Shown in pieces: positions 3,215 to 33,800 of a stretch of 64,000 nucleotides of DNA. The stretch is taken from NCBI GenBank assembly GCA_947476065.1, contig CANJPG010000001.1, forward strand, positions 1-64,000, read 5' to 3'. The notes under the pieces are model-generated. The model was given only the letters and a program-made list of their open reading frames with translations. It was not told the DNA's origin and ran no database searches. Position numbers and translations under genes: made by a program. The DNA is from Fidelibacterota bacterium (GTDB lineage: Bacteria > Pseudomonadota > Alphaproteobacteria > Rhodospirillales > Rhodospirillaceae). Each line of letters opens with the position of its first letter. Within the stretch, counting starts at the first letter, position 1.

Positions 3215-3246
3215 ACCGGCCGCCGAGAGGTGGCCGGTTTTTTTTA
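3215..3246. terminator. Terminator between the heme/propeller gene and the GntR gene
   Basis: A 10-bp stem (ACCGGCCGCC / GGTGGCCGGT, one G-U pair) with a GAGA loop is followed by eight T residues on the plus strand. It ends the plus-strand gene at 3195; the convergent GntR gene ends inside the T-tract. Confidence 0.85.
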
Positions 3247-3912
3247 TGCCGTTTTGGCTGCGCCGCTGCTGACGCGCGCGAAGGCATCCAACAGGTGGTG
3301 GCGCATCATAGCACTGGCGCCCTCGCTGTTGCCGGCGATCATCTCGTCGAGGATCTTTTCGTGCTGTTGCCAGACCGCTTCCGACATGCCGGGATAGCTC
3401 AGCACCTGGCTCATGGCGCGGCGCAGGTGGTGCCAGTGCAGGCGCATGCTGTCGGCGATCAGCGCGTTGCCGGATAGGTCGTAAATGAAAGCGTGGAAGT
3501 CGATGTCAGCCTGCAGGCCGCCGCCGGCGTCCTTGGCCGCGACCATCTCGCGGCCTTTGGCGATGAGGCCGCGCGCTGTGGCTATCGCCGCCGCATCGAG
3601 GCGCGGGATTGCGAGCGTTACCGCCAGCGGCTCCACTGCCGAGCGCAGTTCGTAAATCGCCTGGAAGAACTCGGGCTTGATGGGCGTGACCATCAGGCCC
3701 CGGCGCCCGGCCTGGGTCAGGAAACCCTGCGCCTTGAGGACGGCCAGGGCATGCGTCACCGGCTGGCGCGAGACATTCAGCCTGGCCGCGATCTCCTCCT
3801 GCGTCAGGCGCTCATCGGGCTTTAAGGTGCCGTCACAAAGGGCATCCAAAATGACCTGATAAGCCTGATCTACCAGGCTCTTAGGTTGCTGCAGAGATTC
3901 CATGACCGCCAT
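3244..3912 (-). CDS. GntR family (FCD) transcriptional regulator
   Basis: A 222-residue regulator. Residues ~12-78 form the GntR winged helix (QAYQVILDALCDGTLKPDER, then EEIAARLNVSRQPVTHAL); residues ~85-215 are an all-helical FCD ligand-binding domain with the expected Asp/His metal-site residues (DIDFHAFIYDLSGN, MMRHHLLDAF). It is transcribed divergently from the hydrolase/mutase operon, and the 82-bp gap holds a strong palindrome. FCD proteins usually sense small carboxylates and repress neighbouring catabolic genes; that it senses 2-hydroxyisobutyrate or its CoA ester is inference. A second in-frame ATG at 3903 could be the true start. Confidence 0.9.
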   Translation of the reverse strand: MAVMESLQQPKSLVDQAYQVILDALCDGTLKPDERLTQEEIAARLNVSRQPVTHALAVLKAQGFLTQAGRRGLMVTPIKPEFFQAIYELRSAVEPLAVTLAIPRLDAAAIATARGLIAKGREMVAAKDAGGGLQADIDFHAFIYDLSGNALIADSMRLHWHHLRRAMSQVLSYPGMSEAVWQQHEKILDEMIAGNSEGASAMMRHHLLDAFARVSSGAAKTA

Positions 3913-3941: not shown

Positions 3942-3986
3942 CCCCTTATTGAATTCTGAATTCAATAATTTAAGTTCAATAAGGGG
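3942..3986. promoter_or_regulatory. GntR operator with three half-sites
   Basis: A 19-bp perfect dyad, ATTGAATTC-T-GAATTCAAT (3948-3966), is nested with a second dyad whose 12-base arms, CCCCTTATTGAA (3942-3953) and TTCAATAAGGGG (3975-3986), are also perfect. The right arm overlaps the Shine-Dalgarno sequence of the gene starting at 3995. A regulator bound here could block both divergent promoters and translation initiation. The related dyad at 12802-12829 shares the core AATTCTGAATT. Confidence 0.85.
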
Positions 3987-3994
3987 AGGGCGAT

Positions 3995-5074
3995 ATGAAG
4001 TCAATCAACACACTGACGACCGCTTTAAACACTGTGAGTGCCTTGGCTCTGCTGGCGCTGGCTGTCCAGCCTGCCGCCGCCGCCGATTCCCCCGCCTGGG
4101 CGAATGAAGGTGCCTGCCAAACGCTCAAGATGGTCGCCGCCGGCGGGCCAGCGCCCAAGGGCTCGGACCTGGTTGTCATGCGCTACACCGGCTCGGCCAA
4201 TTTCGAGCTGGCCTATAAGGATACCGTCATCCTTTTCGACGCCCAATACGACCGCTCGCCCCCGGCGCGCGATATCGGCGTGAAGGCCGACGAGCTGAAG
4301 AAAGTCACCGCGGTTTATATCGGCCACGGGCACGGCGACCATATGTCCGAAGGCCCGCAGATCGCCAAGCAATCTGGTGCGCCGCTGTATGGCGCGGCGT
4401 TGACCACCGAAACCGCGATCAAGATGGGGCTCGATCCCAAGCAGGCGAAGACCGTCAAGAACGGCGACGTACAGAAATATCCGGGCTTCACCATTGAAGC
4501 CATCCTCGCACAGCACAACTCGCGTACGCCGGAGTTCGTCAAAGTCGCGGGCGGCGCCTGGGCCGAGCTGCAGAAGGCCACCGGTATCGCCAAGTCCGAC
4601 GAGGATCGCGAAAAGATGCGCGCCAGCGGCAAGATTACAGGCACTAGCGACCCGAAGGTGCTCACCGAAGGCACCTATGCCTATCTGGTCACCTTCGACA
4701 ACGGATACAAGTTCATGATGGTCGACAGCTCCGGACCGATCACCGAAGGCGAACGCGCCGTCATGCAGCGCATCGGCAAGGTCGACGCCGCCAGCATCGC
4801 CTATCAAGGCTACTATGTGCCCGCGCGCCAGATCGAAGGCACACTGCCGCTGGTCGAGCTGTTCAAGCCCGACGTCTTCATCCCTAACCACCACGATGAA
4901 ACCGCAGGCGCGTTCCCCGACATGGGCACCGAGCCCTTGTTCATGGCGATCCGCGAAAAAATGCCCGCGACCCGCAATATCGCGCCGCTCTACCGCACGC
5001 CCGTCTGCATCAATATCAAGTCCAAGGATGTCTTCGTCGGCGAGTCCTACACGTTCCCAAAGACCACGAACTAG
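3995..5074 (+). CDS. Exported metallo-beta-lactamase-fold hydrolase
   Basis: A 359-residue protein with a signal peptide (hydrophobic core ~14-25, cleavage likely near AAA-ADS at 28-31) and the metallo-beta-lactamase signature H111-G-H113-G-D115-H116. Later conserved metal-ligand candidates are VDSSGP and IPNHHDE. The Shine-Dalgarno AGGGGAGGG lies just upstream of the ATG and within the GntR operator. It is the first gene of the operon that continues with the B12 mutase genes. The family hydrolyses esters, lactones, phosphodiesters or beta-lactams; here a periplasmic hydrolase releasing the acid that is then CoA-activated is plausible but not shown. A resistance beta-lactamase is unlikely from context. 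Confidence 0.8.
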   Translation: MKSINTLTTALNTVSALALLALAVQPAAAADSPAWANEGACQTLKMVAAGGPAPKGSDLVVMRYTGSANFELAYKDTVILFDAQYDRSPPARDIGVKADELKKVTAVYIGHGHGDHMSEGPQIAKQSGAPLYGAALTTETAIKMGLDPKQAKTVKNGDVQKYPGFTIEAILAQHNSRTPEFVKVAGGAWAELQKATGIAKSDEDREKMRASGKITGTSDPKVLTEGTYAYLVTFDNGYKFMMVDSSGPITEGERAVMQRIGKVDAASIAYQGYYVPARQIEGTLPLVELFKPDVFIPNHHDETAGAFPDMGTEPLFMAIREKMPATRNIAPLYRTPVCINIKSKDVFVGESYTFPKTTN

Positions 5075-5102: not shown

Positions 5103-5510
5103 TTGAGCCAGCCTATTCGCGTACTTTTAGCTAAAGTCGGTCTCGACGGTCATGACCGCGGCGTGCGTGTTGTTGCGCGCACGCTGCGGGACGCCGGCAT
5201 GGATGTGATCTATTCCGGCCTGCATCGCACGCCGGAGGAGGTGGTTAGCGCTGCCATCCAGGAGGACGTCGATATTCTGGGTGTCAGTCTGCTGTCGGGC
5301 GTGCAGCTGACGGTATTCCCGAAGATCTTCAAGCTGCTCGCCGAGAAGGGCGTGTCCGACATGATCATCGTCGCCGGCGGCGTCATGCCTGACGAAGACG
5401 TCGTCGAGCTCAAGAACATGGGCGTGCATGAGGTCATGCTGCAGGACACTCCGCCCGATGCCATCGTCAAAACCCTCACGCGCCTTGTGACCGAGCGCGG
5501 ACCGCGTTGA
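5103..5510 (+). CDS. hcmB: 2-hydroxyisobutyryl-CoA mutase, cobalamin-binding small subunit
   Basis: A 135-residue stand-alone B12-binding domain starting with TTG after GGAGAGG. The base-off/His-on motif is D15-x-H17-x-x-G20 (KVGLDGHDRG); H17 should coordinate cobalt. SLLSG and AGGVMP, which hold the nucleotide tail of adenosylcobalamin, follow. In methylmalonyl-CoA mutase this domain is fused to the C-terminus of the catalytic chain; a separate ~136-residue subunit is typical of 2-hydroxyisobutyryl-CoA mutase and archaeal-type mutases. The stop overlaps the next start (TTGA), indicating translational coupling with the ligase. The symbol depends on the residues seen in the large subunit. Confidence 0.85.
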   Translation: MSQPIRVLLAKVGLDGHDRGVRVVARTLRDAGMDVIYSGLHRTPEEVVSAAIQEDVDILGVSLLSGVQLTVFPKIFKLLAEKGVSDMIIVAGGVMPDEDVVELKNMGVHEVMLQDTPPDAIVKTLTRLVTERGPR

Positions 5511-6943
5511 GCAGGGCGATGGAATCCTGGTCTTTTCCGCCGGTTTATGACGAGTCCTACCTGCCACCGGTCGACAGCCGCTATTGGTTCAAACAACGCG
5601 AGACCATGCCTGCCGGGGAGCGTGAGCGCGCCATTCTCGAACGCTTGCAGCAGGTTTGCCGTTACGCCTTTGAGCATTCGCCATTCTACCGGAGCAAGTG
5701 GAGCGAAGCCGGCTTTCATCCCGATCACCTGAAGTCCCTCGAAGACTTCGAAGATAAGGTGCCCGTCGTCACCAAAGCCGACCTGCGCGCTTCGCAAGCC
5801 GCACATCCACCTTACGGCGACTACCTCTGTGTACCCGAGCGCGAGATCTTCCACCTGCACGGCACCAGCGGCACGACCGGCAGGCCAACAGCGTTTGCGA
5901 TTGGACGCAACGACTGGCGCGCCATTGCCAACGCCCATGCGCGCATCATGTGGGCGATGGGCATGCGGCCCGGCGACACCATCTGTGTTGCCGCGATCTT
6001 CTCGCTTTACATGGGCAGCTGGGGTGCGCTCGCGGGTGCTGAACGCCTGGGCGCCAAGGCTTTTCCGTTCGGCGCCGGAGCTGCCGGTATGAGTGCCCGC
6101 TGCGCCCAGTGGCTCGACCTGATCAAGCCCAGCGCCTTCTACGGCACGCCGACCTATGCCGTGCACCTGGGCGAAACCGCTATCAAGGAGGGCCTCGACC
6201 CGCGCAAGTTCGGCCTCAAGCAAATGTTTTTCTCCGGCGAACCAGGCGCGTCGATTCCCGGCGTTCGCGGGCGCATCATGGATCTGTTCAATGCGAAGGT
6301 CTTCGACTGTGGTTCCATGGCCGAGATGACGCCTTGGATGAACGTGGCCGGCTCCGCCGAAACGTCGGGCATGCTCTGCTGGCAGGACGTGATCTACACC
6401 GAAGTCTGTGATCCCAATTCCTTGCGCCGTGTCCCCTACGGCCAGCGCGGCACGCCGGTCTACACACATCTTGAGCGCACCTCGCAGCCGATGATCCGCC
6501 TTGCCTCGGGCGATCTCACGCAGTGGGTCAATGAAGCCAATCCCTGCGGCCGCACCTATCCGCGTTTGCCAAACGGTATCTTCGGGCGCATCGACGACAT
6601 GTTTACGATCCGCGGCGAAAACGTCTACCCGAGCGAAATCGAAGCCGTGCTCAATGAAATTCCGGGCTACGGCGGCGAGCACCAGATCGTCATCTCGCGC
6701 GAAGCGGCCATGGACGAACTGCTGCTGCGTGTGGAAGCCAACGACAAGATTTTTGCAGAAGGTGCGGTGGAAAAATACCGCGCCGAGGTTAGCCATCGCA
6801 TCCAGAAGCTTCTCGGCCTGCGCGCCAAGGCCGAGATCGTCGCCCAAGCCACGCTGCCACGTACTGACTTCAAGGCGCGCCGCGTCGTCGACGACCGCGC
6901 GGTCTTTCGCGACATGAATGCCCATCTGGAGCGCGCCGAGTGA
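5507..6943 (+). CDS. PaaK-like acyl-CoA ligase, probably 2-hydroxyisobutyrate-CoA ligase
   Basis: A 478-residue adenylate-forming ligase of the phenylacetate-CoA ligase type. The AMP-binding loop is HGTSGTTGRPT (118-128), then FYGTPTY and the hinge/C-terminal motif GRIDDMFTIRGENVYPSEIE. It starts with TTG overlapping the stop of the small-subunit gene (TTGA); an ATG at 5519 is an alternative. Ligases of this family and length cluster with 2-hydroxyisobutyryl-CoA mutase genes and activate the free acid with ATP and CoA in the cytoplasm. Substrate assignment rests on context; a phenylacetate ligase would be expected beside paa genes, which are absent. Confidence 0.8.
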   Translation: MSRAMESWSFPPVYDESYLPPVDSRYWFKQRETMPAGERERAILERLQQVCRYAFEHSPFYRSKWSEAGFHPDHLKSLEDFEDKVPVVTKADLRASQAAHPPYGDYLCVPEREIFHLHGTSGTTGRPTAFAIGRNDWRAIANAHARIMWAMGMRPGDTICVAAIFSLYMGSWGALAGAERLGAKAFPFGAGAAGMSARCAQWLDLIKPSAFYGTPTYAVHLGETAIKEGLDPRKFGLKQMFFSGEPGASIPGVRGRIMDLFNAKVFDCGSMAEMTPWMNVAGSAETSGMLCWQDVIYTEVCDPNSLRRVPYGQRGTPVYTHLERTSQPMIRLASGDLTQWVNEANPCGRTYPRLPNGIFGRIDDMFTIRGENVYPSEIEAVLNEIPGYGGEHQIVISREAAMDELLLRVEANDKIFAEGAVEKYRAEVSHRIQKLLGLRAKAEIVAQATLPRTDFKARRVVDDRAVFRDMNAHLERAE

Positions 6944-7899
6944 GTGCGTACGTGCCCTCCACGGCGCTGATTCCACGGGCCGAAGCTGGAGAGATTCCCT
7001 CCATCGCGCGCCTGATCTCCCGCGCGGAAGCTGGGCTGCCTGAGGCGCGTCCAGCCCTCGCGCAAATATACAAAAAAGCGGGCAGGGCGCACGTTATCGG
7101 CATCACCGGTGTGCCCGGCAGCGGCAAATCGACCCTCGTCGCGGCTCTTGCGGCGCGCCTCAGGGCCCTCGGCGGCAAAGTCGGCATCGTTGCCGTCGAT
7201 CCTTCCAGTCCCTATTCCGGCGGCGCCATTCTCGGTGATCGGATCCGCATGACCGAATTGGCCCAGGACCCAGGCATTTATATCCGCAGCATGGCCACGC
7301 GCGGCGCCATGGGCGGAATGGCTCGCGCCACCTTGGACGCAGTCGACATCCTTGACCTCGGCGGTTTCGAGACCGTCATCATTGAAACCGTCGGCGTCGG
7401 TCAGGATGAAGTCGAGATCGCCAAGGCTTCGCACACCACCGTCGTCGTCTCCGCGCCCGGCCTTGGCGACGAAATTCAGGCGATCAAAGCCGGCATGCTC
7501 GAAATCGCAGATATCCATCTCGTCTCGAAGTGTGACCGCAGCGATGCCAACCGCACGCTGATGGACTTGAAGCAGATGCTGACCCTCGGCGCCCACAGCG
7601 GGCCCAGGCCGGAATGGCAGGTGCCGGTCGTCGGCGTCTGTTCCTTCAACGGTCAGGGCTTCGAAGAACTGGTGGACGCCATCCAGAAGCATCAGCACAC
7701 GCTTTCTACCGAAAGCGGAAAAAAGCGCCGGCTCTCCATCGCGTCATTCCGCCTGCAAAAGACCGCCGAGAACCTGCTCATCGAGCGGTTCACTCAGGCT
7801 TCCGCCGCGCTGCGCCCGAAGCTCGCCGAGCGCCTCAGCGCACGCGACGGGGACCCCTATACCCTGGCAAGCGAACTGCTTGCCGCGGCACTCGCTTAG
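6940..7899 (+). CDS. MeaB/ArgK-type G3E GTPase, mutase chaperone
   Basis: A 319-residue GTPase starting with GTG overlapping the previous stop (GTGA). Motifs: P-loop GVPGSGKST (57-65), VDPSSPYSGGAILGDRIRM, switch II ETVGVGQDE, and the base-recognition loop SKCDRSD. MeaB proteins gate loading of adenosylcobalamin and ejection of damaged cofactor from B12 acyl-CoA mutases. Its position between the two mutase subunit genes points to the mutase encoded here as its client. The length is normal for the family (about 320-340). Confidence 0.9.
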   Translation: MSAYVPSTALIPRAEAGEIPSIARLISRAEAGLPEARPALAQIYKKAGRAHVIGITGVPGSGKSTLVAALAARLRALGGKVGIVAVDPSSPYSGGAILGDRIRMTELAQDPGIYIRSMATRGAMGGMARATLDAVDILDLGGFETVIIETVGVGQDEVEIAKASHTTVVVSAPGLGDEIQAIKAGMLEIADIHLVSKCDRSDANRTLMDLKQMLTLGAHSGPRPEWQVPVVGVCSFNGQGFEELVDAIQKHQHTLSTESGKKRRLSIASFRLQKTAENLLIERFTQASAALRPKLAERLSARDGDPYTLASELLAAALA

Positions 7900-7914: not shown

Positions 7915-9591
7915 ATGAACAAAACCGTCGATCAACTCCGCGCCGAGGAAAAAGACTGGGAAGCCAACGAAGTCGCCCAGTTTCTGAAAAAACAGGCCGA
8001 ACGCAAGACGCAGTTCTTCACGCTCGGCGATATCCCGGTGAAGCGCACCTATACGGCGGCCGATCTCGCCGAGACACCCGAGGAAGACATCGGTCTGCCG
8101 GGCCGCTATCCCTTCACGCGCGCGCCGTACCCCACCATGTACAGGAGCCGCAATTGGACCATGCGCCAGATCGCCGGCTTCGGCACGGGCGAAGATACCA
8201 ACGTGCGCTTTAAGTATCTCATCGCCCAGGGTCAGACAGGCATCTCCACCGACTTCGATATGCCGACGCTGATGGGCTATGATTCCGATCATCCCATGAG
8301 CGACGGCGAAGTCGGCCGCGAAGGTGTCGCCATCGACACCCTGGCCGACATGGAAGCGCTGCTCGACGGCATTGATCTCGAGAAGATTTCGGTATCGCTG
8401 ACCATCAATCCCTCGGCCTGGATTCTGCTGGCCATGTACATCGTGCTGGCCGAGAAGCGCGGCTATGACCTGAACAAACTCTCAGGCACCGTGCAGGCCG
8501 ACATCCTCAAGGAATACATGGCGCAGAAGGAATTCATCTTCCCGGTGACGCCATCGGTGCGTCTGGTGCGCGATTGCATCACCCACTGCGCCAAGACCAT
8601 GAAGCGCTACAACCCCATCAATATATCCGGCTACCATATCTCTGAGGCGGGGGCGTCGCCGCTGCATGAGGCCGCTTTCACGCTGGCCAATCTCATCGTC
8701 TATGTCGAAGAGGTCTTAAAGACCGGCATGCAGGTCGATGAGTTCGCGCCGCGTCTGGCGTTCTTCTTCGTCTGCCAGGCCGATTTCTTTGAAGAAGTCG
8801 CCAAGTTCCGGGCCTTGCGCCGCTGTTACGCCAAGATCATGAAGGAGCGCTTTGGGGCAAAAAATCCTGAATCCATGCGTCTGCGCTTCCACTGCCAGAC
8901 CGCCGCCGCAAGCCTGACGAAGCCCCAGTACATGATCAACGTCGTGCGCACCGGCATGCAGGCGCTTTCCGCGGTGCTCGGCGGCTGCCAGTCGCTGCAC
9001 ACCAACGGCTACGACGAGGCCTTTGCCATCCCCACCGAAGACGCTATGCGCATGGCCCTCCGCACGCAGCAGATTATCGCCGAGGAGACCAACGTCACCC
9101 AGGTCATCGACCCCTTGGGCGGCTCATACTTCGTCGAAAGCCTGACCACCGAATACGAGAAGCGGATTTTCGATATCTTGAAGGAAATCGAGGACCGTGG
9201 TGGCACGCTGAAGCTGATCGAGGAGGGATGGTTCCAGAAGCAGATCGCCGATTTCGCCTATGAAACGGCCCTGCGTAAACAGTCGGGCGAAAAGCCGGTC
9301 ATCGGCGTCAACCGTTTTGTCGATGGCACGCCCGATCCGAAAATCCATACCCATCCTTACGACAAAAGCACGGCCGAACGCCAAATTGCACGCACCAAAA
9401 GGGTGCGGGCGGAACGCGATCCCAAGCTGATGGCCGAGCTGCTTGAAAAACTTAAGACCGTGGCCGCCGACGACAGCCAGAACATCATGCCTGTCACCAT
9501 TGAACTCGTACGTGCCGGCGCAACGATGGGCGATATCATTGAAACTTTAAAGACCGTCTGGGGCACTTACCGCGAGACGCCGGTTTTCTAA
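7915..9591 (+). CDS. hcmA: 2-hydroxyisobutyryl-CoA mutase, catalytic large subunit
   Basis: A 558-residue TIM-barrel mutase chain without a B12 domain. The CoA-channel segment [19 protein letters not shown] aligns with the methylmalonyl-CoA mutase segment that ends in RQYAGF. Ile86 replaces the catalytic Tyr (Tyr89 in Propionibacterium shermanii methylmalonyl-CoA mutase), and [10 protein letters not shown] puts Asp113 where that enzyme has Ala. An Ile and an Asp 27 residues apart are the known hallmark of 2-hydroxyisobutyryl-CoA mutase (Ile90/Asp117 in Aquincola). The catalytic His is kept (SGYH241). Reaction: 2-hydroxyisobutyryl-CoA to (S)-3-hydroxybutyryl-CoA with adenosylcobalamin. Last gene of the operon, preceded by GAAGAAGG. 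Confidence 0.9.
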
Positions 9592-9610: not shown

Positions 9611-9650
9611 CCAAAAAAAGAGGGGGAACACCGGGTGTTCCCCCTCTTTG
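9611..9650. terminator. Bidirectional terminator between the mutase operon and the receptor gene
   Basis: A 15-bp perfect stem (AAAGAGGGGGAACAC, 9617-9631; GTGTTCCCCCTCTTT, 9635-9649) with a CGG loop separates the convergent genes. The minus strand carries the longer T-tract (seven bases), so it acts best for the receptor transcript. Confidence 0.85.
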
Positions 9651-9670: not shown

Positions 9671-12565
9671 TTACATCTTGAAGCGCAGGCCAGCGCGGAA
9701 CACACGACCCATGGTGTCGTAGAGGGTCGCGTTGGCCAGTAGCAGGTAGAACGAGGTGTTGAACGGAGCGAAAGCTGCCGGGTCGCGGTTGGCGATGTTC
9801 TTGACGTTGAGGAAGGCTTCGCCCTCGGCACTTTCGCTGATGCCGAATTTATAGCTCAGCGACGTGTCGAGATAGAATGCGCCGGCCATATGGTTGATGT
9901 TGATGGTGGTGTTGTCCACTGTCGACACCGGGCAGCCGCTGGTGCAGGTGATGTAGCTGTTGTCGTAAGTGCCGCCGCTGATGGCGCGCGCCGTCAACGA
10001 GGCCTTGATCGGGTTGTTGTCGTAGGCCAGCGTCGCCGACATACGCCAGCTCGGCGGGCCGCCGCTGGTGTTTTGGCCGGCGGTATCGGTCGGCTTGTTG
10101 ATGCCGTTGTCGGTAAAGTTTTTCATGTAGTGCGTGGCGTTGCCGTGCAGCGAGACGTCGCCGGCCCAACCGGAGACCAGGTCGGACACCGGCATGCGGT
10201 AGCTGGCCTCGAGGTCTAGACCGCGGGCTTTCTGGACGGACAGGTTGAAGGGGGCCGCCAGGTAGCCCGTGGCAACGCCGTTGACGCGGGTGATGGCCTG
10301 ACAGAACTGCTGCGCGCCTTGGACGCAAAGGTCGAACACGCCCTGGGCGCCGATGGTGCCGATGGAACCTTTGATATCGATGTTCCAGTAGTCCACCGAA
10401 GCGCTGAAGCCCGACAGGAATGACGGCTGCAGCACGACACCGATACCCGTCGTATCGGCCTTCTCAGGCTTCAGCTTGGTATTGCCGGTCACCACGCCGC
10501 GCACCAGCGGCGAGGTGTTGGTGAAGGCGTCGAACACGGTCACCTGGTTGGACGTGCCGCCTGCAAACAGCTCCTGCAGATTGGGCGCGCGGATATCGCG
10601 CGAACGCGTTACGCGCAGTTTGATATCCGGGATCGGCGTATAGGTGGTGCCGATCTTCCAGGTGGTGACGTAACCCGCGGTCGAGTAGTCGGTCGCGCGC
10701 ACGGCGGCGTTCAGGTCCCAGCTGTCGGCCCAGGGCTGACCCTTGGCGATTGGCACCACGGTTTCCAACGCGCCCTCGGTGACGGTCACGCCGCCGATGA
10801 CGGGTAGATAGTTGCCGGCGAACCAGTCAACAGCCTGGGACACTGGGTCGTTGACTCCCGTGGACTTCTCCGAGCGGTGTTCGGCGCTGAGCGCGATGGA
10901 GACCGGGCCCGCCCAGTTGGAGAAGGGCTCGCCCGTAACGGATCCCGCCCAGACGTTCTGGGTGAGCTTCTGGTTGATATGCGCAGTGCCGGTCAGGTAA
11001 GCGCGGGCCGCGTCGGTATTCACGCCGATGCCCATTTCGTTCCACGGCACGCAACCGTTATTGGGGTTGGTGAGCGTCGAGCGGCAGACGATCTGGCCGT
11101 TGGCGTTACGCACCGCGTCGATGGCCAGGGCAAAGCGCGATTTCGAGGCCACGCCGATGGCATTGATGTTGCTGCGCGACACGCCGTTCTGGAAGTAGGC
11201 ATCCCACGACCAGCCGGTGCCGAAGGCATCGAACTTGCCGTTGCCCCCGACGACATAGCGGTTGACCTTGCGGTCGTTGCTGACGGCGACGATGGGCAAG
11301 TCGTAGTTCATACTGCCCAGCGCGAAGGTGGTCAGGCCGAGCGCGGTCATGCGTGCGCGTAGTTCGGCCGGAATGAAGGCGTTGTCGGCCTTGATGGTGC
11401 CGGCGTTGCCGAGCTGGAACTGGGTGAACGAACGGGTATAGGGCTTCTCACGGGCCCAGCCGGCCGAAGCAAAGATGTTGATGCTGTCGGTGATGTCGTA
11501 AGCCACGCGCATAAAGGCGTTCTGGCGCGATTCAGACGGCGACAGCGAGTTGCCGTGATTCTGGCGCGATTCAGTGAATTTCCAGTCTCCGCCCGACATC
11601 TTGGGGTCGAGCACAATGGACCCATAGTTAAGCTGGAACGGCACGCCGCCCGGGCCGAATGCAGTGCCCTTCAAGGGGCCGGAGACGATGATGCCGCCAG
11701 GGGCTGCGTTGCTTTCGCTCACCGACGGGAGCAGCAGGCGCTGCGGCACCGACGTCGAGCAGGCGGGGCACGCCGCCGTAGGGTTGCCGTACAGCGGGTT
11801 GGTCATAATGCCCCAGCCCACTTCGTTCCAGGCGCGGTCGCCGTCATCCAGGATGCCCGAGCGGTCGACCTGTTCGCCCGACAGCAGCACGTGACCGCGT
11901 CCGCCGCCAAAGCCGAAGCCCGCCGACAAGCCGATCTTGTAGTTTTTGTCGTCGCCGTAGGAGGTCACGCCGCCCGAGACTTCTCCCTTCACGCCAGTGA
12001 ATTGCTTGTCGATGATGAAGTTGACGACGCCGGACACGGCGTCCGAGCCGTAGACGGCCGATGCGCCGCCGGTCACCACTTCCACGCGCTGGATCAGCTG
12101 TTGCGGGAAAGTGTTGATATCCACCACGCCCGTGGTCAGCGAGCCGACCGAACGCTGGCCGTCGATCAGGACCAGCGAGCGCGTCGCACCCAGGTTGCGC
12201 AGGTTGAGGGAGTTGACGCCCGAGGTGCCGGCGCTGACGCTGCCTTGGGCGGTATTTGGCATCTGGCTGCCGGAGAAGACCGGCATGGTGTTGACGAACT
12301 CAGCGACGTTTGAGGCCGAGGTGGATTCCAGCGCCGCGGAATCAATTACGGACAGCGGGGTCGGGGCCTGGTAGCCGTCGCGCACGATGCGCGAACCGGT
12401 GACGGTGACTTCCTCAAGCTCGGTCTGTGCGTTTTGATCCTGCGCAAAAGCAGCATGTGCGCCGAGTGCGGCGTAGGTCGTCAGCGCCAAAGCGCTGACC
12501 GTGCAAAGTGCGCGCGTCTGAAAGGTCATCGCGCGGCGCTCAGTCAAAGTACCAATCGATCCCAT
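9671..12565 (-). CDS. TonB-dependent outer-membrane receptor
   Basis: A 964-residue receptor. The ATG at 12565 has GGGAG 7 bases upstream; an internal ATG at 12529 also precedes the signal peptide (ALCTVSALALTTYAALG, cleavage near AFAQ-DQ). The TonB box/plug follows: EEVTVTGSRI, then NLRNLGATRSLVLIDGQR and VVTGGASAVYGSDAVSGVVN; the rest is a 22-strand-type barrel ending in RFKM. It resembles the large receptors used by oligotrophic Alphaproteobacteria for carbohydrates or aromatic and plant compounds. A truncated paralogue of its last ~165 residues lies at 128-607. The palindrome at 12802-12829 links it to the GntR-controlled operon. Ligand unknown. Confidence 0.92.
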   Translation of the reverse strand: MGSIGTLTERRAMTFQTRALCTVSALALTTYAALGAHAAFAQDQNAQTELEEVTVTGSRIVRDGYQAPTPLSVIDSAALESTSASNVAEFVNTMPVFSGSQMPNTAQGSVSAGTSGVNSLNLRNLGATRSLVLIDGQRSVGSLTTGVVDINTFPQQLIQRVEVVTGGASAVYGSDAVSGVVNFIIDKQFTGVKGEVSGGVTSYGDDKNYKIGLSAGFGFGGGRGHVLLSGEQVDRSGILDDGDRAWNEVGWGIMTNPLYGNPTAACPACSTSVPQRLLLPSVSESNAAPGGIIVSGPLKGTAFGPGGVPFQLNYGSIVLDPKMSGGDWKFTESRQNHGNSLSPSESRQNAFMRVAYDITDSINIFASAGWAREKPYTRSFTQFQLGNAGTIKADNAFIPAELRARMTALGLTTFALGSMNYDLPIVAVSNDRKVNRYVVGGNGKFDAFGTGWSWDAYFQNGVSRSNINAIGVASKSRFALAIDAVRNANGQIVCRSTLTNPNNGCVPWNEMGIGVNTDAARAYLTGTAHINQKLTQNVWAGSVTGEPFSNWAGPVSIALSAEHRSEKSTGVNDPVSQAVDWFAGNYLPVIGGVTVTEGALETVVPIAKGQPWADSWDLNAAVRATDYSTAGYVTTWKIGTTYTPIPDIKLRVTRSRDIRAPNLQELFAGGTSNQVTVFDAFTNTSPLVRGVVTGNTKLKPEKADTTGIGVVLQPSFLSGFSASVDYWNIDIKGSIGTIGAQGVFDLCVQGAQQFCQAITRVNGVATGYLAAPFNLSVQKARGLDLEASYRMPVSDLVSGWAGDVSLHGNATHYMKNFTDNGINKPTDTAGQNTSGGPPSWRMSATLAYDNNPIKASLTARAISGGTYDNSYITCTSGCPVSTVDNTTININHMAGAFYLDTSLSYKFGISESAEGEAFLNVKNIANRDPAAFAPFNTSFYLLLANATLYDTMGRVFRAGLRFKM

Positions 12566-13111
12566 AACATCACTCCCTATAAACGGTTGAACGGTTTACT
12601 TGACGTAAGTATTTGATATATAAATATAATTACACGCGACGCCCGAGAATCGCCGGCGCCCGCGCGAGCCCCTCCACAAGGCTCGCAAGGCGACCGCCGA
12701 GATGCGCCGATGATTTGAAATCCCGCCTCGCGAGCGGCACGAAGCCGTGTCGCCTTTCACGTGTAACTCCCCGCTCAAGCCCTAATGTGTAGGTACGGAC
12801 GGAGCAATTAAATTCAGAATTAATTGCTCGGAAGTCCCGGAGAGTTCAGGTTTTTTTGACGATGAAGAGGCAGCGGCTATAACGCAACTGCAGCATCGCT
12901 GATCAAGCACATCGCAAATTTACATGATGCACTGCACGCGTGCCGATGTTCTGGATGGCGTCTTCTAAACTTCACTAGCGCATAGTGGCGCGATAGTGAC
13001 ACTTGGAATGATTCTAGAGCGTTAAATCGCTTGTTAGTTGACGGCTTTAGGATGCGCACTTAGCCATGACTCAGTGCCGCTTGCGCTCGCACGTATCTTG
13101 GACCATAGCTG
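12566..13111. other. 546-bp intergenic region upstream of the receptor and of malonyl-CoA decarboxylase
   Basis: This divergent gap holds a tandem AACGGTT-G-AACGGTT (12582-12596) in the receptor leader, an AT-rich block (12599-12632) that could supply promoter elements, and a palindrome at 12802-12829. I see no convincing gene: several short frames lack a ribosome-binding site or family resemblance. Confidence 0.7.
12802..12829. promoter_or_regulatory. Palindrome related to the GntR operator
   Basis: Arms GAGCAATTAA and TTAATTGCTC (10 bp, perfect) flank ATTCAGAA. Read on the minus strand the centre is AATTCTGAATT, the same 11 bases found at the centre of the operator at 3948-3966. It lies about 240 bp upstream of the receptor start on the side from which that gene is transcribed. 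Confidence 0.65.
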
Positions 13112-14503
13112 ATGAACATGAGCGTTACTCTTCCGTCCGGCCTTCTGAAGATCTGGGAGCAGGTGCGGTCTGCGCTCGATGTCGTGCGTCCCGAGACGTC
13201 GGCAGCGGCCAGGTTACCCGCGCCGGTTGCCAAGAAGCCGGACGTGGACCTTGTAGCGCTGTGCGAGACGCTGCTCGCGCGCAAAGAGGAAAATGCCGGC
13301 ATCAAGCTGGTCGGGCAGATTCTCGACACCTATCAGTCTTTCTCCGAAGACGACCGCTGCCGCTTCCTCAATGCGCTCGCCGAGCGCTTTGGCCCCGATC
13401 CGGCGCGCCTCGACCGCGCCATCCTGGCTTACCAGGCTTCGCCGGACGACCTAGCTTTCCGTGAGTTGCAGGCGGCGGTGGAGCCGCGCCGGCAAAGATT
13501 GATCCGTCTGCTCAACTTTGTGCCTAACGGCACCTTCAAGATCGTGCAAATGCGCGCCGACGCCATCCGCCTGAAGAGCAAGCTGCCCAAGTTCAGCCAG
13601 CTGGATTCCGATTTCGCCCACATTTTCCGCTCCTGGTTCAACCGCGGCTTTCTGGTGCTCAAGCAGGTCGACTGGTCGTCGCCCGCCCAGGTGCTGGCCA
13701 AGATCATCCAGTACGAAGCCGTGCACGACATCAAGGACTGGAGCGACCTGCAAAGCCGCATCGACCCTGAAGACCGGCGCTGCTTTGCCTTCTTCCATCC
13801 GCAGATGCCCGAAGAGCCGCTGATTTTCATCGAAGTGGCCCTCACGCTCGAGATCCCGGCAACCATCGAAAGCGTGCTGACCGGCAAGAGCCAGGTCATC
13901 CGCGCCAACGAGGCGCGCACGGCGGTGTTCTACTCCATCTCCAACTGCAATATCGGCCTGCGCGGCATCCCGTTCGGCAACTTCCTGATCAAGCAGGTGG
14001 TCGAAGTGCTGCGCCGCGAGTTGCCGAACCTCGACACCTTTGTCACGCTGTCGCCGCTGCCGGGCTTCGCCGGCTGGCTGGCGCGCGAACGCAAGGCCTC
14101 GGCCGAGGGGATTATAAGTCCCGAGGAAGCGCGGTCGCTGCAGACCCTCGATTTCGAAGGCTGGAGCAAGACGCCCGAAACCTCAGAAGCCGTCCGTCCG
14201 CTGCTGGTGTCGGCGGCGGCCCGGTTTCTCCTGCAGGCCAAGGACGAGAACGGCCTGCCCGCTGACCCCGTGCAGCGCTTCCACATGAGCAACGGTGCCC
14301 GCCTCAACCGCATCAACTGGCTGGGCGACGTGTCGGGCCGCGGCCTGAAGCAGGCCCACGGCTTCATGGTCAATTACCTCTATGATCTAAAGGCCATCGA
14401 GGCCAATCAGGAAGCCATCGCCGTCAACGGAACCATCGACGTCAACCCCGCCGTGCGCGACCAACTCAAGGTCGCCAAGCCCCCGCGGGTCAAAGCCAGC
14501 TAA
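13112..14503 (+). CDS. Malonyl-CoA decarboxylase
   Basis: A 463-residue protein of the MatA/MLYCD family: an N-terminal helical domain and a GNAT-like C-terminal catalytic domain. Typical C-terminal signatures are present (GIPFGNFLIKQVV, TLSPLPGFAGWL with the conserved Ser, and FHMSNGARLNRINWLGD with the catalytic His). It converts malonyl-CoA to acetyl-CoA and CO2 in the cytoplasm. No malonyl-CoA synthetase or transporter lies beside it, so it may act in malonate or propanoid by-product disposal rather than in a mat operon. Start is the ATG at 13112 or the one two codons later; the ribosome-binding site is weak. Confidence 0.92.
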   Translation: MNMSVTLPSGLLKIWEQVRSALDVVRPETSAAARLPAPVAKKPDVDLVALCETLLARKEENAGIKLVGQILDTYQSFSEDDRCRFLNALAERFGPDPARLDRAILAYQASPDDLAFRELQAAVEPRRQRLIRLLNFVPNGTFKIVQMRADAIRLKSKLPKFSQLDSDFAHIFRSWFNRGFLVLKQVDWSSPAQVLAKIIQYEAVHDIKDWSDLQSRIDPEDRRCFAFFHPQMPEEPLIFIEVALTLEIPATIESVLTGKSQVIRANEARTAVFYSISNCNIGLRGIPFGNFLIKQVVEVLRRELPNLDTFVTLSPLPGFAGWLARERKASAEGIISPEEARSLQTLDFEGWSKTPETSEAVRPLLVSAAARFLLQAKDENGLPADPVQRFHMSNGARLNRINWLGDVSGRGLKQAHGFMVNYLYDLKAIEANQEAIAVNGTIDVNPAVRDQLKVAKPPRVKAS

Positions 14504-21545: not shown

Positions 21546-22937
21546 TCAGCCTTCGGCGGAAAAGGCTAAAGGAAACTGCAATAGCACCCGCAATCCCCGT
21601 CCGCCGGGCGGGTCCGCCAGAGAGATCGTGATCCCCAGCCGTTCGGCGATTTGTTTGGCGATGGCCAATCCCAGTCCGCTGCCGGGCGTGATGGCGCCGG
21701 CCAGCCGATAAAACCGGTCAAAGACCTTTTCGCGCTTGTCGGCGGGAACGCCCGGGCCGCTGTCGTCGATGATGATGGTCGGGGTCTCCTCTTTCACCAC
21801 CCGCACCGTTACGGAGCCGGCGGCCGGTGTGTATTTGAATGCGTTATCCAGTAAGACGCCGATCAGAATGGCCGCCAGCTTGCCGTTGGTGGACGCCGTC
21901 AGGTTCTCATCACCTTCGAGCCCGAGCGTAATATTCTTTCCGATGGGCAGCGTGCTGTTCACGGCGATGGAGGTTTGCGCCAGGTTGAACAGGTTCACGC
22001 GCTCGACCGGTGCATCCTGAGTTCCCAAACGAGCCAACATCAATAACTGTTCCACCACCGTGATCGCCCGCGAGATGCCCAGCTGCAGGGCGTCGATGGC
22101 CTCGCGTCGCTCCTGTTCGCCGGCACGGGCCGCCAACTGGCTTTGCAGCTTCAGGACCGTCAGCGGGGTCCTGAGCTCATGGGCGGCGTTGTCGACAAAA
22201 TCGCGTTCCAGGGCGATGGCGCGGCGCAGCTTTTCCAGCAGGCCGTTCAAGGCGTCAAACACCGGCGTCAGCTCATAGGGCACGTCGGCGACATCAATCG
22301 GTGAAAGGTCGTCCTCTGAGCGCTGGTCAATGGCATCGACCGCGCGCGTCAGTTCGGCCAGGCCGATGTCGATGCTGAGAAAAAGGGCCGCCAGCAGCAC
22401 GGCGGCAAGGCCGATCATAGGTCCGGCGGCGCCCAGCAGCATCTCGCGCCGCAGCCGGTCGCGCCCCGCTAGGTTTTCCCAGACCTCAAAGATCAGCTCG
22501 TGCGTCGGGTTCTGCAGCGAATACACCCGCCACGGGGCTTCATTGACGACAATATCGTTGAATCCACGCCCGACCGGCCCAACGTTTTCATTGGGCGCGT
22601 TCTTGGAGCGGTTGACGAGCTTGTTGTTAAGCCAGATGCGGAAGGCGCGGGTGTCGGCGTAGTCGAGGATCTTCGAGCGGTCCTCGGCCGGCAGTTCGGC
22701 GACGAGGGACTGCAGATCGACCTCGGTCTCCGTGACCTCATCGCCGCTCAACCCGACGTCGCTCTCCCGTATTCTGTCCCACAGAATCTCGGCGTCGGAG
22801 ATGAGCTTGGCGTTGTATTCCTCCGAGATCTCCTTTTCGGCGCCCCGGATGACGATCACCTGGACGCCGAAGACGGCAGCGATGGTCAGTGCGGCGATGA
22901 GTACAAACAGACGCCGCCGCAGCGAGAGACGCTTCAC
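21546..22937 (-). CDS. Two-component sensor histidine kinase
   Basis: A 463-residue kinase. The start is GTG at 22937, overlapping the response-regulator stop (GTGA). Transmembrane helices at ~9-30 and ~168-190 bracket a periplasmic sensor of ~140 residues; then HAMP, the H-box with H253 (NAAHELRTPLT), N-box and G-boxes (IIIDDSGPGVP, GSGLGLAIAKQIAERLG). Resembles QseC/TctE-type kinases. The partner regulator is encoded immediately upstream. The stimulus is not evident from sequence. Confidence 0.9.
   Translation of the reverse strand: MKRLSLRRRLFVLIAALTIAAVFGVQVIVIRGAEKEISEEYNAKLISDAEILWDRIRESDVGLSGDEVTETEVDLQSLVAELPAEDRSKILDYADTRAFRIWLNNKLVNRSKNAPNENVGPVGRGFNDIVVNEAPWRVYSLQNPTHELIFEVWENLAGRDRLRREMLLGAAGPMIGLAAVLLAALFLSIDIGLAELTRAVDAIDQRSEDDLSPIDVADVPYELTPVFDALNGLLEKLRRAIALERDFVDNAAHELRTPLTVLKLQSQLAARAGEQERREAIDALQLGISRAITVVEQLLMLARLGTQDAPVERVNLFNLAQTSIAVNSTLPIGKNITLGLEGDENLTASTNGKLAAILIGVLLDNAFKYTPAAGSVTVRVVKEETPTIIIDDSGPGVPADKREKVFDRFYRLAGAITPGSGLGLAIAKQIAERLGITISLADPPGGRGLRVLLQFPLAFSAEG

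Positions 22938-32120: not shown

Positions 32121-33800
<1,680 letters not shown>

Follow-up and report, generated by a model that had tools for sequence, protein, structure and literature searches.

The 64,000-nt stretch of DNA analysed here (the window; positions 1–64,000 of contig CANJPG010000001.1, assembly GCA_947476065.1, a bacterium of GTDB lineage Rhodospirillaceae) holds a predicted operon for 2-hydroxyisobutyryl-CoA mutase, a divergent gene for a GntR-type regulator and a convergent gene for a TonB-dependent receptor. Two palindromes, one upstream of the operon and one upstream of the receptor gene, contain the same 11-bp core. An earlier interpretation made from the letters of this stretch (the sequence-only reading) had taken both palindromes as operators of one regulon joining outer-membrane uptake to the mutase operon. 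Here we find that the first palindrome is very probably the operator of the GntR regulator, and we weigh four explanations for the second.

The operon runs on the plus strand and opens with a metallo-beta-lactamase-fold hydrolase (3995–5074; Pfam Lactamase_B_2) whose start resembles a signal peptide by eye. It continues with the B12-binding small subunit of the mutase (5103–5510; top solved match 4r3u_C, E = 2.1e-63), a PaaK-like acyl-CoA ligase that is putatively the 2-hydroxyisobutyrate (2-HIBA)-CoA ligase (5507–6943; Pfam and NCBIfam, with an operon position as in PMC7176365), a MeaB-like mutase-associated GTPase (6940–7899; Pfam and NCBIfam) and the large mutase subunit (7915–9591; top solved match 4r3u_A). 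The large subunit scores 1055 bits against 4r3u_A and 445 against the next entry, which places it closer to the solved 2-hydroxyisobutyryl-CoA mutase than to methylmalonyl-CoA mutase. Residues I86 and D113, a pair that we take to be diagnostic of 2-hydroxyisobutyryl-CoA mutase, are identical in the 4r3u alignment. Judged by the Pfam and 4r3u matches of both subunits, the predicted products of the operon are 2-hydroxyisobutyryl-CoA mutase and its partners, and the B12-dependent mutase operon of the sequence-only reading stands.

Upstream of the operon, on the minus strand, lies the gene for a 222-aa regulator of the FCD/FadR type (3244–3912), in which both expected domains are found (Pfam GntR, PF00392, E = 1.3e-12; FCD, PF07729, E = 2.5e-28). 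Orthologues stand beside the same genes in two relatives, G049 and G059, and in Agrobacterium deltaense and Xanthobacter autotrophicus. Downstream, the 964-aa TonB-dependent receptor is encoded on the minus strand (9671–12565; Pfam Plug and barrel domains), and an inverted repeat with 16-bp arms between the convergent mutase and receptor genes (9617–9649) may act as a two-way terminator. A 546-bp gap separates the receptor from a plus-strand malonyl-CoA decarboxylase gene (13112–14503; protein family match), which is a neighbour of the cluster in G049 as well.

The first palindrome occupies the gap between the divergent regulator and hydrolase genes. It is a 23-bp dyad at 3946–3968, slightly longer than the 3948–3966 reported before, with a 13-bp heart, GAATTCTGAATTC, at 3951–3963, 31 bp from the hydrolase ATG and 38 bp from the GntR ATG; the exact 13-mer occurs once in the genome. 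The site is conserved beside related regulators: exact GAATTCWGAATTC lies beside the GntR orthologues of G049 (82–83% identical to the window's regulator), G059 (61%), the A. deltaense plasmid pEL101-243 (68.5%) and the X. autotrophicus plasmid pXAUT01 (60.5%), and a one-base variant, GAATTCGGAATTC, beside the homologue in G001 (37–39%). AATTCNGAATT stands beside the GntR gene in all five of these relatives, with a further occurrence on pXAUT01, and on both plasmids the regulator adjoins a mutase operon. In all seven sites found by patterns asking for the inner core alone, among them the window's, G precedes the core and C follows it, giving GAATTCNGAATTC; one of the seven adjoins the Xanthobacter gene Xaut_5024. 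This invariance is counted over those seven sites, and the operators of G686, G412, G520, G609, Azoarcus, Caballeronia and Cupriavidus, picked by eye or by a pattern requiring the outer G and C, are excluded from it. A third GN4C hexamer follows in a 7-bp step in five of the seven (chance 0.002, counted after the sites had been seen), and four relatives of the same class (G686, G412, G520 and G609; GntR 45–46% identical) carry a looser GN4C-N-GN4C form upstream of the gene, as judged by eye. Searching 317 genomes of the order at E ≤ 1e-45 yielded no further GntR relatives, and a scan of named genome contigs for the GntR locus returned one, taken as G049.

The TKGT/ACMA boxes, described in PMC4494728 as the common operator consensus of the FadR subfamily, are not present in GAATTCWGAATTC; the same source lists NanR and BioR among the members that depart from this consensus. 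From its phylogenetic footprint, its distances to the two start codons and its uniqueness in the genome, the site at 3951–3963 is very probably the operator of the divergent GntR regulator, and its conservation beside orthologous regulators bears out the earlier assignment. As an FCD-type repressor, the regulator would silence its own gene and the mutase operon until some acid or acyl-CoA of the 2-HIBA pathway is present. A longer inverted repeat, CCCCTTATTGAA / TTCAATAAGGGG, overlaps the operator at 3942–3986 (RNA fold z −4.56); its 3′ arm holds the start of the hydrolase ribosome-binding site, which it would mask as RNA, and its CCCC arm was not seen by eye in the G049 sequence.

The second palindrome, GAGCAATTAAATTCAGAATTAATTGCTC at 12802–12829, consists of perfect 10-bp arms (12802–12811 and 12820–12829) 8 nt apart. 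The core AATTCTGAATT sits within it at 12811–12821 on the minus strand and within the operator at 3952–3962 on the plus strand, confirming that both palindromes share it, on opposite strands. The further claim, of an identical centre set in longer dyads, fares less evenly: the inner 11 bases are common to both, but the outer two of the 13-bp heart differ, and at the receptor the outer dyad is centred on 12815.5 and the inner core on 12816, so the two are not concentric. In the best alignment to the operator, AAATTCAGAATTA at 12810–12822, 11 of 13 bases agree; the inner AATTCWGAATT is intact, and A and A stand where operators keep G at −6 and C at +6. A 25-bp model built from the seven sites, which themselves score 23.8–40.8 bits, gives the receptor dyad 17.2 bits and second place in the window, ahead of 14.6 (a match overlapping the operator itself) and 12.6. 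With an 11-site model the dyad comes third at both lengths tested, outscored by a match at 32600 when the model spans 13 bp and by one at 21837 when it spans 25 bp. The operators have two or three adjacent GN4C hexamers; at the dyad a single hexamer keeps the 7-bp register, and it falls outside the 13-mer. The receptor ATG is 244 bp away from the dyad and the decarboxylase ATG 289 bp, both outside the range of 18–38 bp defined by the window site at 3951, the two pXAUT01 sites and the pEL101-243 site only. Among the DNA matches listed for 18 genus relatives none extends over the dyad, which therefore cannot be footprinted.

How surprising the shared core is depends on the scale considered. The sequence-only reading saw no third copy of AATTCTGAATT in 64 kb, and this holds even across the whole assembly (3,260,001 bases in 158 contigs; reversed-pattern control 0). 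The expectation is 0.02 copies per window, with two copies reached in none of 100 dinucleotide shuffles; genome-wide it is about 1 at the window's shuffle rate or 0.18 from base composition alone. Two copies per genome are thus a modest excess, and the notable part is that both fall inside 9 kb. Under a first-order Markov model of the 546-bp gap upstream of the receptor, AATTCWGAATT appears in 0.02–0.04% of runs. With its centre base left free, the core occurs at three places in the source genome. Of 73 family genomes, the source genome among them, 56 have it; the number of places per genome ranges from 0 to 9, and from 0 to 6 for the reversed control. For this reason the core alone is not specific to the GntR regulator; one such place in a relative is G049:C32:116193.

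A genome-wide scan for the motif is ambiguous: the 11-bp core is found twice and the 13-bp operator once, and when up to two mismatches from GAATTCTGAATTC are allowed there are 24 places, where the reversed control has 15. Twenty-two of these 24 near-matches lie inside open frames of at least 101 codons, the exceptions being the operator and the receptor dyad, both in one 9-kb stretch; the near-match at C110:1260 sits in a frame of just 101 codons and might also be non-coding. The receptor copy is therefore weak as an operator, with its outer bases missing and a low score, yet well placed, outside long open frames.

We put at about even chances the explanation that the dyad at 12802–12829 is a separate inverted repeat upstream of the receptor and a non-working copy of the operator. 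Its inner 11 bp would then be shared by coincidence or distant descent, and the dyad would most likely be the target of some other receptor regulator. This reading draws on the missing outer G:C pairs, the low score, the single hexamer in register and the 244-bp distance, and on three further observations. First, the receptor has a dyad of its own: TAAACGGTTGAACGGTTTA at 12580–12598, near-perfect and 14 bp upstream of the receptor ATG, is not matched elsewhere in the genome at up to two mismatches (reversed control 1) and is a candidate site of a separate regulator. Second, G049, the nearest relative with the cluster, matches the operator at a single place when one mismatch is allowed and has no counterpart of the second site. 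Third, the FCD repressor Atu1419 no longer binds once the contacted guanine and its partner are altered (PMC7797058).

Several observations weigh against a non-working copy and speak for a secondary operator, weaker than the first, that the same GntR regulator would bind and through which receptor and mutase operon would be co-induced by the 2-HIBA pathway. The inner 11 bp are exact, with a chance of about 0.02 per window and below 0.001 for the 546-bp gap, and are found only twice in 3.26 Mb. The dyad is the sole near-match besides the operator outside frames of more than 100 codons, and a model leaving out the window's own operator still ranks it second in the window. No other regulator was found among the 19 scanned proteins of the first 20 kb, a region with 57 open reading frames of at least 100 aa. 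Atu1419 offers a precedent for an FCD repressor at a degenerate second site, since it also binds a palindrome matching at 8 of 10 bp (PMC7797058). Finally, pXAUT01 carries a second operator of the regulator ahead of an uptake gene. Set against these are the loss of both outer G:C pairs, which are kept in seven of seven sites, a score near background in the 11-site model, the 244 bp to the receptor start and the missing G049 counterpart. We regard a secondary operator as a serious contender, somewhat less probable than a separate repeat.

The Xanthobacter plasmid deserves particular attention here. Its 316,164 bases contain GAATTCWGAATTC at exactly two places, where 0.0009 are expected from base composition. 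The first is upstream of the mutase operon. The second, also perfect, lies at L100:15004–15016 (pXAUT01 244474–244486), 38 bp upstream of Xaut_5024, which encodes a periplasmic binding protein (Pfam Peripla_BP_6) on the opposite strand and convergent with the 2-HIBA mutase operon. The arrangement of sites on pXAUT01 supports, in general terms and whatever holds for the window's receptor, the view that such a regulator may link uptake with the mutase operon. The proposed regulon thus finds a parallel in a two-operator arrangement with an uptake gene on this plasmid, but the receptor site in the window, at 17.2 bits, far from the start, without the outer G:C pairs and behind a start-proximal dyad, does not match it.

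A third explanation appears rather unlikely: the dyad would be no protein site, but either a hairpin within a long leader of the receptor RNA or a repeat without function. The perfect 10-bp arms fold on the receptor strand at −16.5 kcal/mol (z −4.54), and a GGGGA[AG] or GGGAG box, which may mark long leaders, lies 150–230 bp upstream in 9 of 28 receptor upstream regions, this receptor's included; this is a raw count, and several of the start codons are uncertain. Rfam, however, returns no family in the window at gathering scores, and the AT-rich symmetrical core is typical of operators. Least probable, although it overlaps the other explanations, is a role of the dyad at the plus-strand malonyl-CoA decarboxylase operon instead of at the receptor. 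The dyad sits close to the midpoint of the divergent gap, 289 bp from the decarboxylase. In G049 this gene comes after the mutase cluster and shares its strand, so that here the inverted receptor stands between it and the operon. Against this role, the element CTTGTTARTTGAC at 13030–13042, which also precedes the decarboxylase of G049, points to an independent promoter, even if the whole non-coding alignment there is no better than shuffles.

That element, CTTGTTAGTTGAC on the plus strand, is possibly the promoter of the downstream operon; its counterpart upstream of the G049 decarboxylase differs at one base, and it is exact in the loci of two other relatives. The surrounding stretch, 13019–13046, is also found at G052:C4:18449 and G044:C37:37257 (88–92% over 25–26 nt; E 0.007 and 0.03 per genome). 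The non-coding alignment with G049 ahead of the decarboxylase scores 43.5, against a shuffle mean of 37.7 and maximum of 60.

The receptor itself has its top listed match in a paralogue, 69% identical, encoded elsewhere in the source genome. Among the matches listed for the 72 other family genomes (up to 11 candidates scored per genome), there is no close orthologue, the best reaching 60%, which is also the identity of the best one listed for G049. Identity as a BtuB-type B12 receptor was rejected, since the TIGR01779 match spans residues 29–230 only and reaches 94.6 bits where the cut-off is 599.7. Short DNA matches near 12937–12965 hinted at the relic of a further receptor gene upstream, but protein comparison did not bear this out. 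Counts of 7-mers revealed no motif common to the 28 receptor upstream regions (own included), the commonest occurring in 8 of 28 and being GC-rich, and neither gap gave a hit in simple scans for sigma-70 promoters and terminators. By eye, a dyad GCTCA-N3-TGAGTG lies several hundred bp upstream of three receptor paralogues in G000, G049 and G052 (L073, L075 and L076).

The cluster of G049 opens with two copies of the hydrolase gene and continues with those for the B12 subunit, ligase, MeaB and mutase; then come a different receptor, here encoded on the cluster's own strand, the decarboxylase and five more shared genes. The window's receptor has no match in this stretch at E 1e-4. Receptors of both types, the window's and that of G049, are numerous in the genus, so that an adjacent receptor is weak evidence by itself. 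We considered the G049 receptor in the same slot as proof of a functional link; this argument is weakened, as its 76% relative in the window's source genome lies on another contig, C140, where no place within two mismatches of the operator was found. On a 15,860-base contig of G059 (L070, contig C33), the operator precedes genes for a phosphate acetyl/butyryl transferase and an acetate-kinase-family protein, followed by the B12 subunit. No ligase or hydrolase match was found on that contig; acyl-phosphate activation may replace the ligase in G059.

A related arrangement is seen on plasmid pAZKH of Azoarcus sp. KH32C (L154:2079–2234), where a GntR gene of 40% identity lies beside thiamine-pyrophosphate-binding and AMP-binding genes. 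The gap between the latter two contains two operator-like hexamer arrays, GAATTCCGAACTC and GAATTCAGAATGC. A lyase route for 2-HIBA is described in PMC7176365, and the pAZKH cluster possibly represents this route of 2-HIBA breakdown. The comparison covered six of ten plasmid records, those other than Caballeronia SBC1 and SBC2, Cupriavidus P-10 and Indioceanicola.

Taken more broadly, these loci allow a tentative proposal, which we hold to be possible but doubtful: that regulons with two sites recur among the 2-HIBA GntR regulators, where another operator, placed independently in different lineages, brings an uptake component under the mutase inducer (a periplasmic binding protein in Xanthobacter, a TonB-dependent receptor here), that the GN4C array with its 7-bp step is bound by several cooperating dimers, and that some relatives use the same kind of operator before the alternative, thiamine-dependent lyase route. 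If the operator is shared with the lyase route, the likely inducer would be a compound found in both routes, either 2-HIBA or the CoA ester of it. The operator sequence offers a direct handle on genes of 2-hydroxyisobutyrate catabolism, which occurs in degraders of fuel oxygenates, and predicts the transport genes of this pathway. The perfect second operator on the Xanthobacter plasmid would be the better place to prove shared regulation of uptake and mutase.

A GntR gene beside 2-hydroxyisobutyryl-CoA mutase operons has already been described (PMC7176365). The mutase operons of Aquincola tertiaricarbonis and Methylibium petroleiphilum PM1 likewise have a neighbouring GntR gene; unlike them, the operon here is led by the metallo-beta-lactamase-fold hydrolase and faces a convergent TonB-dependent receptor. 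The PM1 plasmid, whose GntR is 45% identical to the window's, also differs in having no site for a GAATTC-type operator. No operator sequence appears in the consulted portions of PMC7176365 or PMC13188929, a literature search joining 2-HIBA, GntR and operator gave no match, and the matches listed for the core letters concern, by title, unrelated human, mouse, plant and parasite subjects.

Two better-characterized repressors offer the closest comparisons. Like the regulator here, Atu1419 of Agrobacterium fabrum, of the FCD/VanR type of GntR, is an FCD repressor of a catabolic cluster, and it has several palindromic sites, one of them degenerate. According to PMC7797058, its site is the 10-bp ATGTATACAT, with paired sites 109 and 190 bp apart, unlike the two dyads here, which are about 9 kb apart, and its binding is abolished by changing the contacted guanine and its partner. 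The (GGTATA)3 operator of NanR (PMC8012715) likewise consists of short repeats at a fixed step of less than one helical turn, and several dimers of this GntR-type repressor bind there. The operator in the window differs in its 7-bp step and GN4C hexamers, and from these repeats we propose that several dimers of the 2-HIBA regulator may bind it as well.
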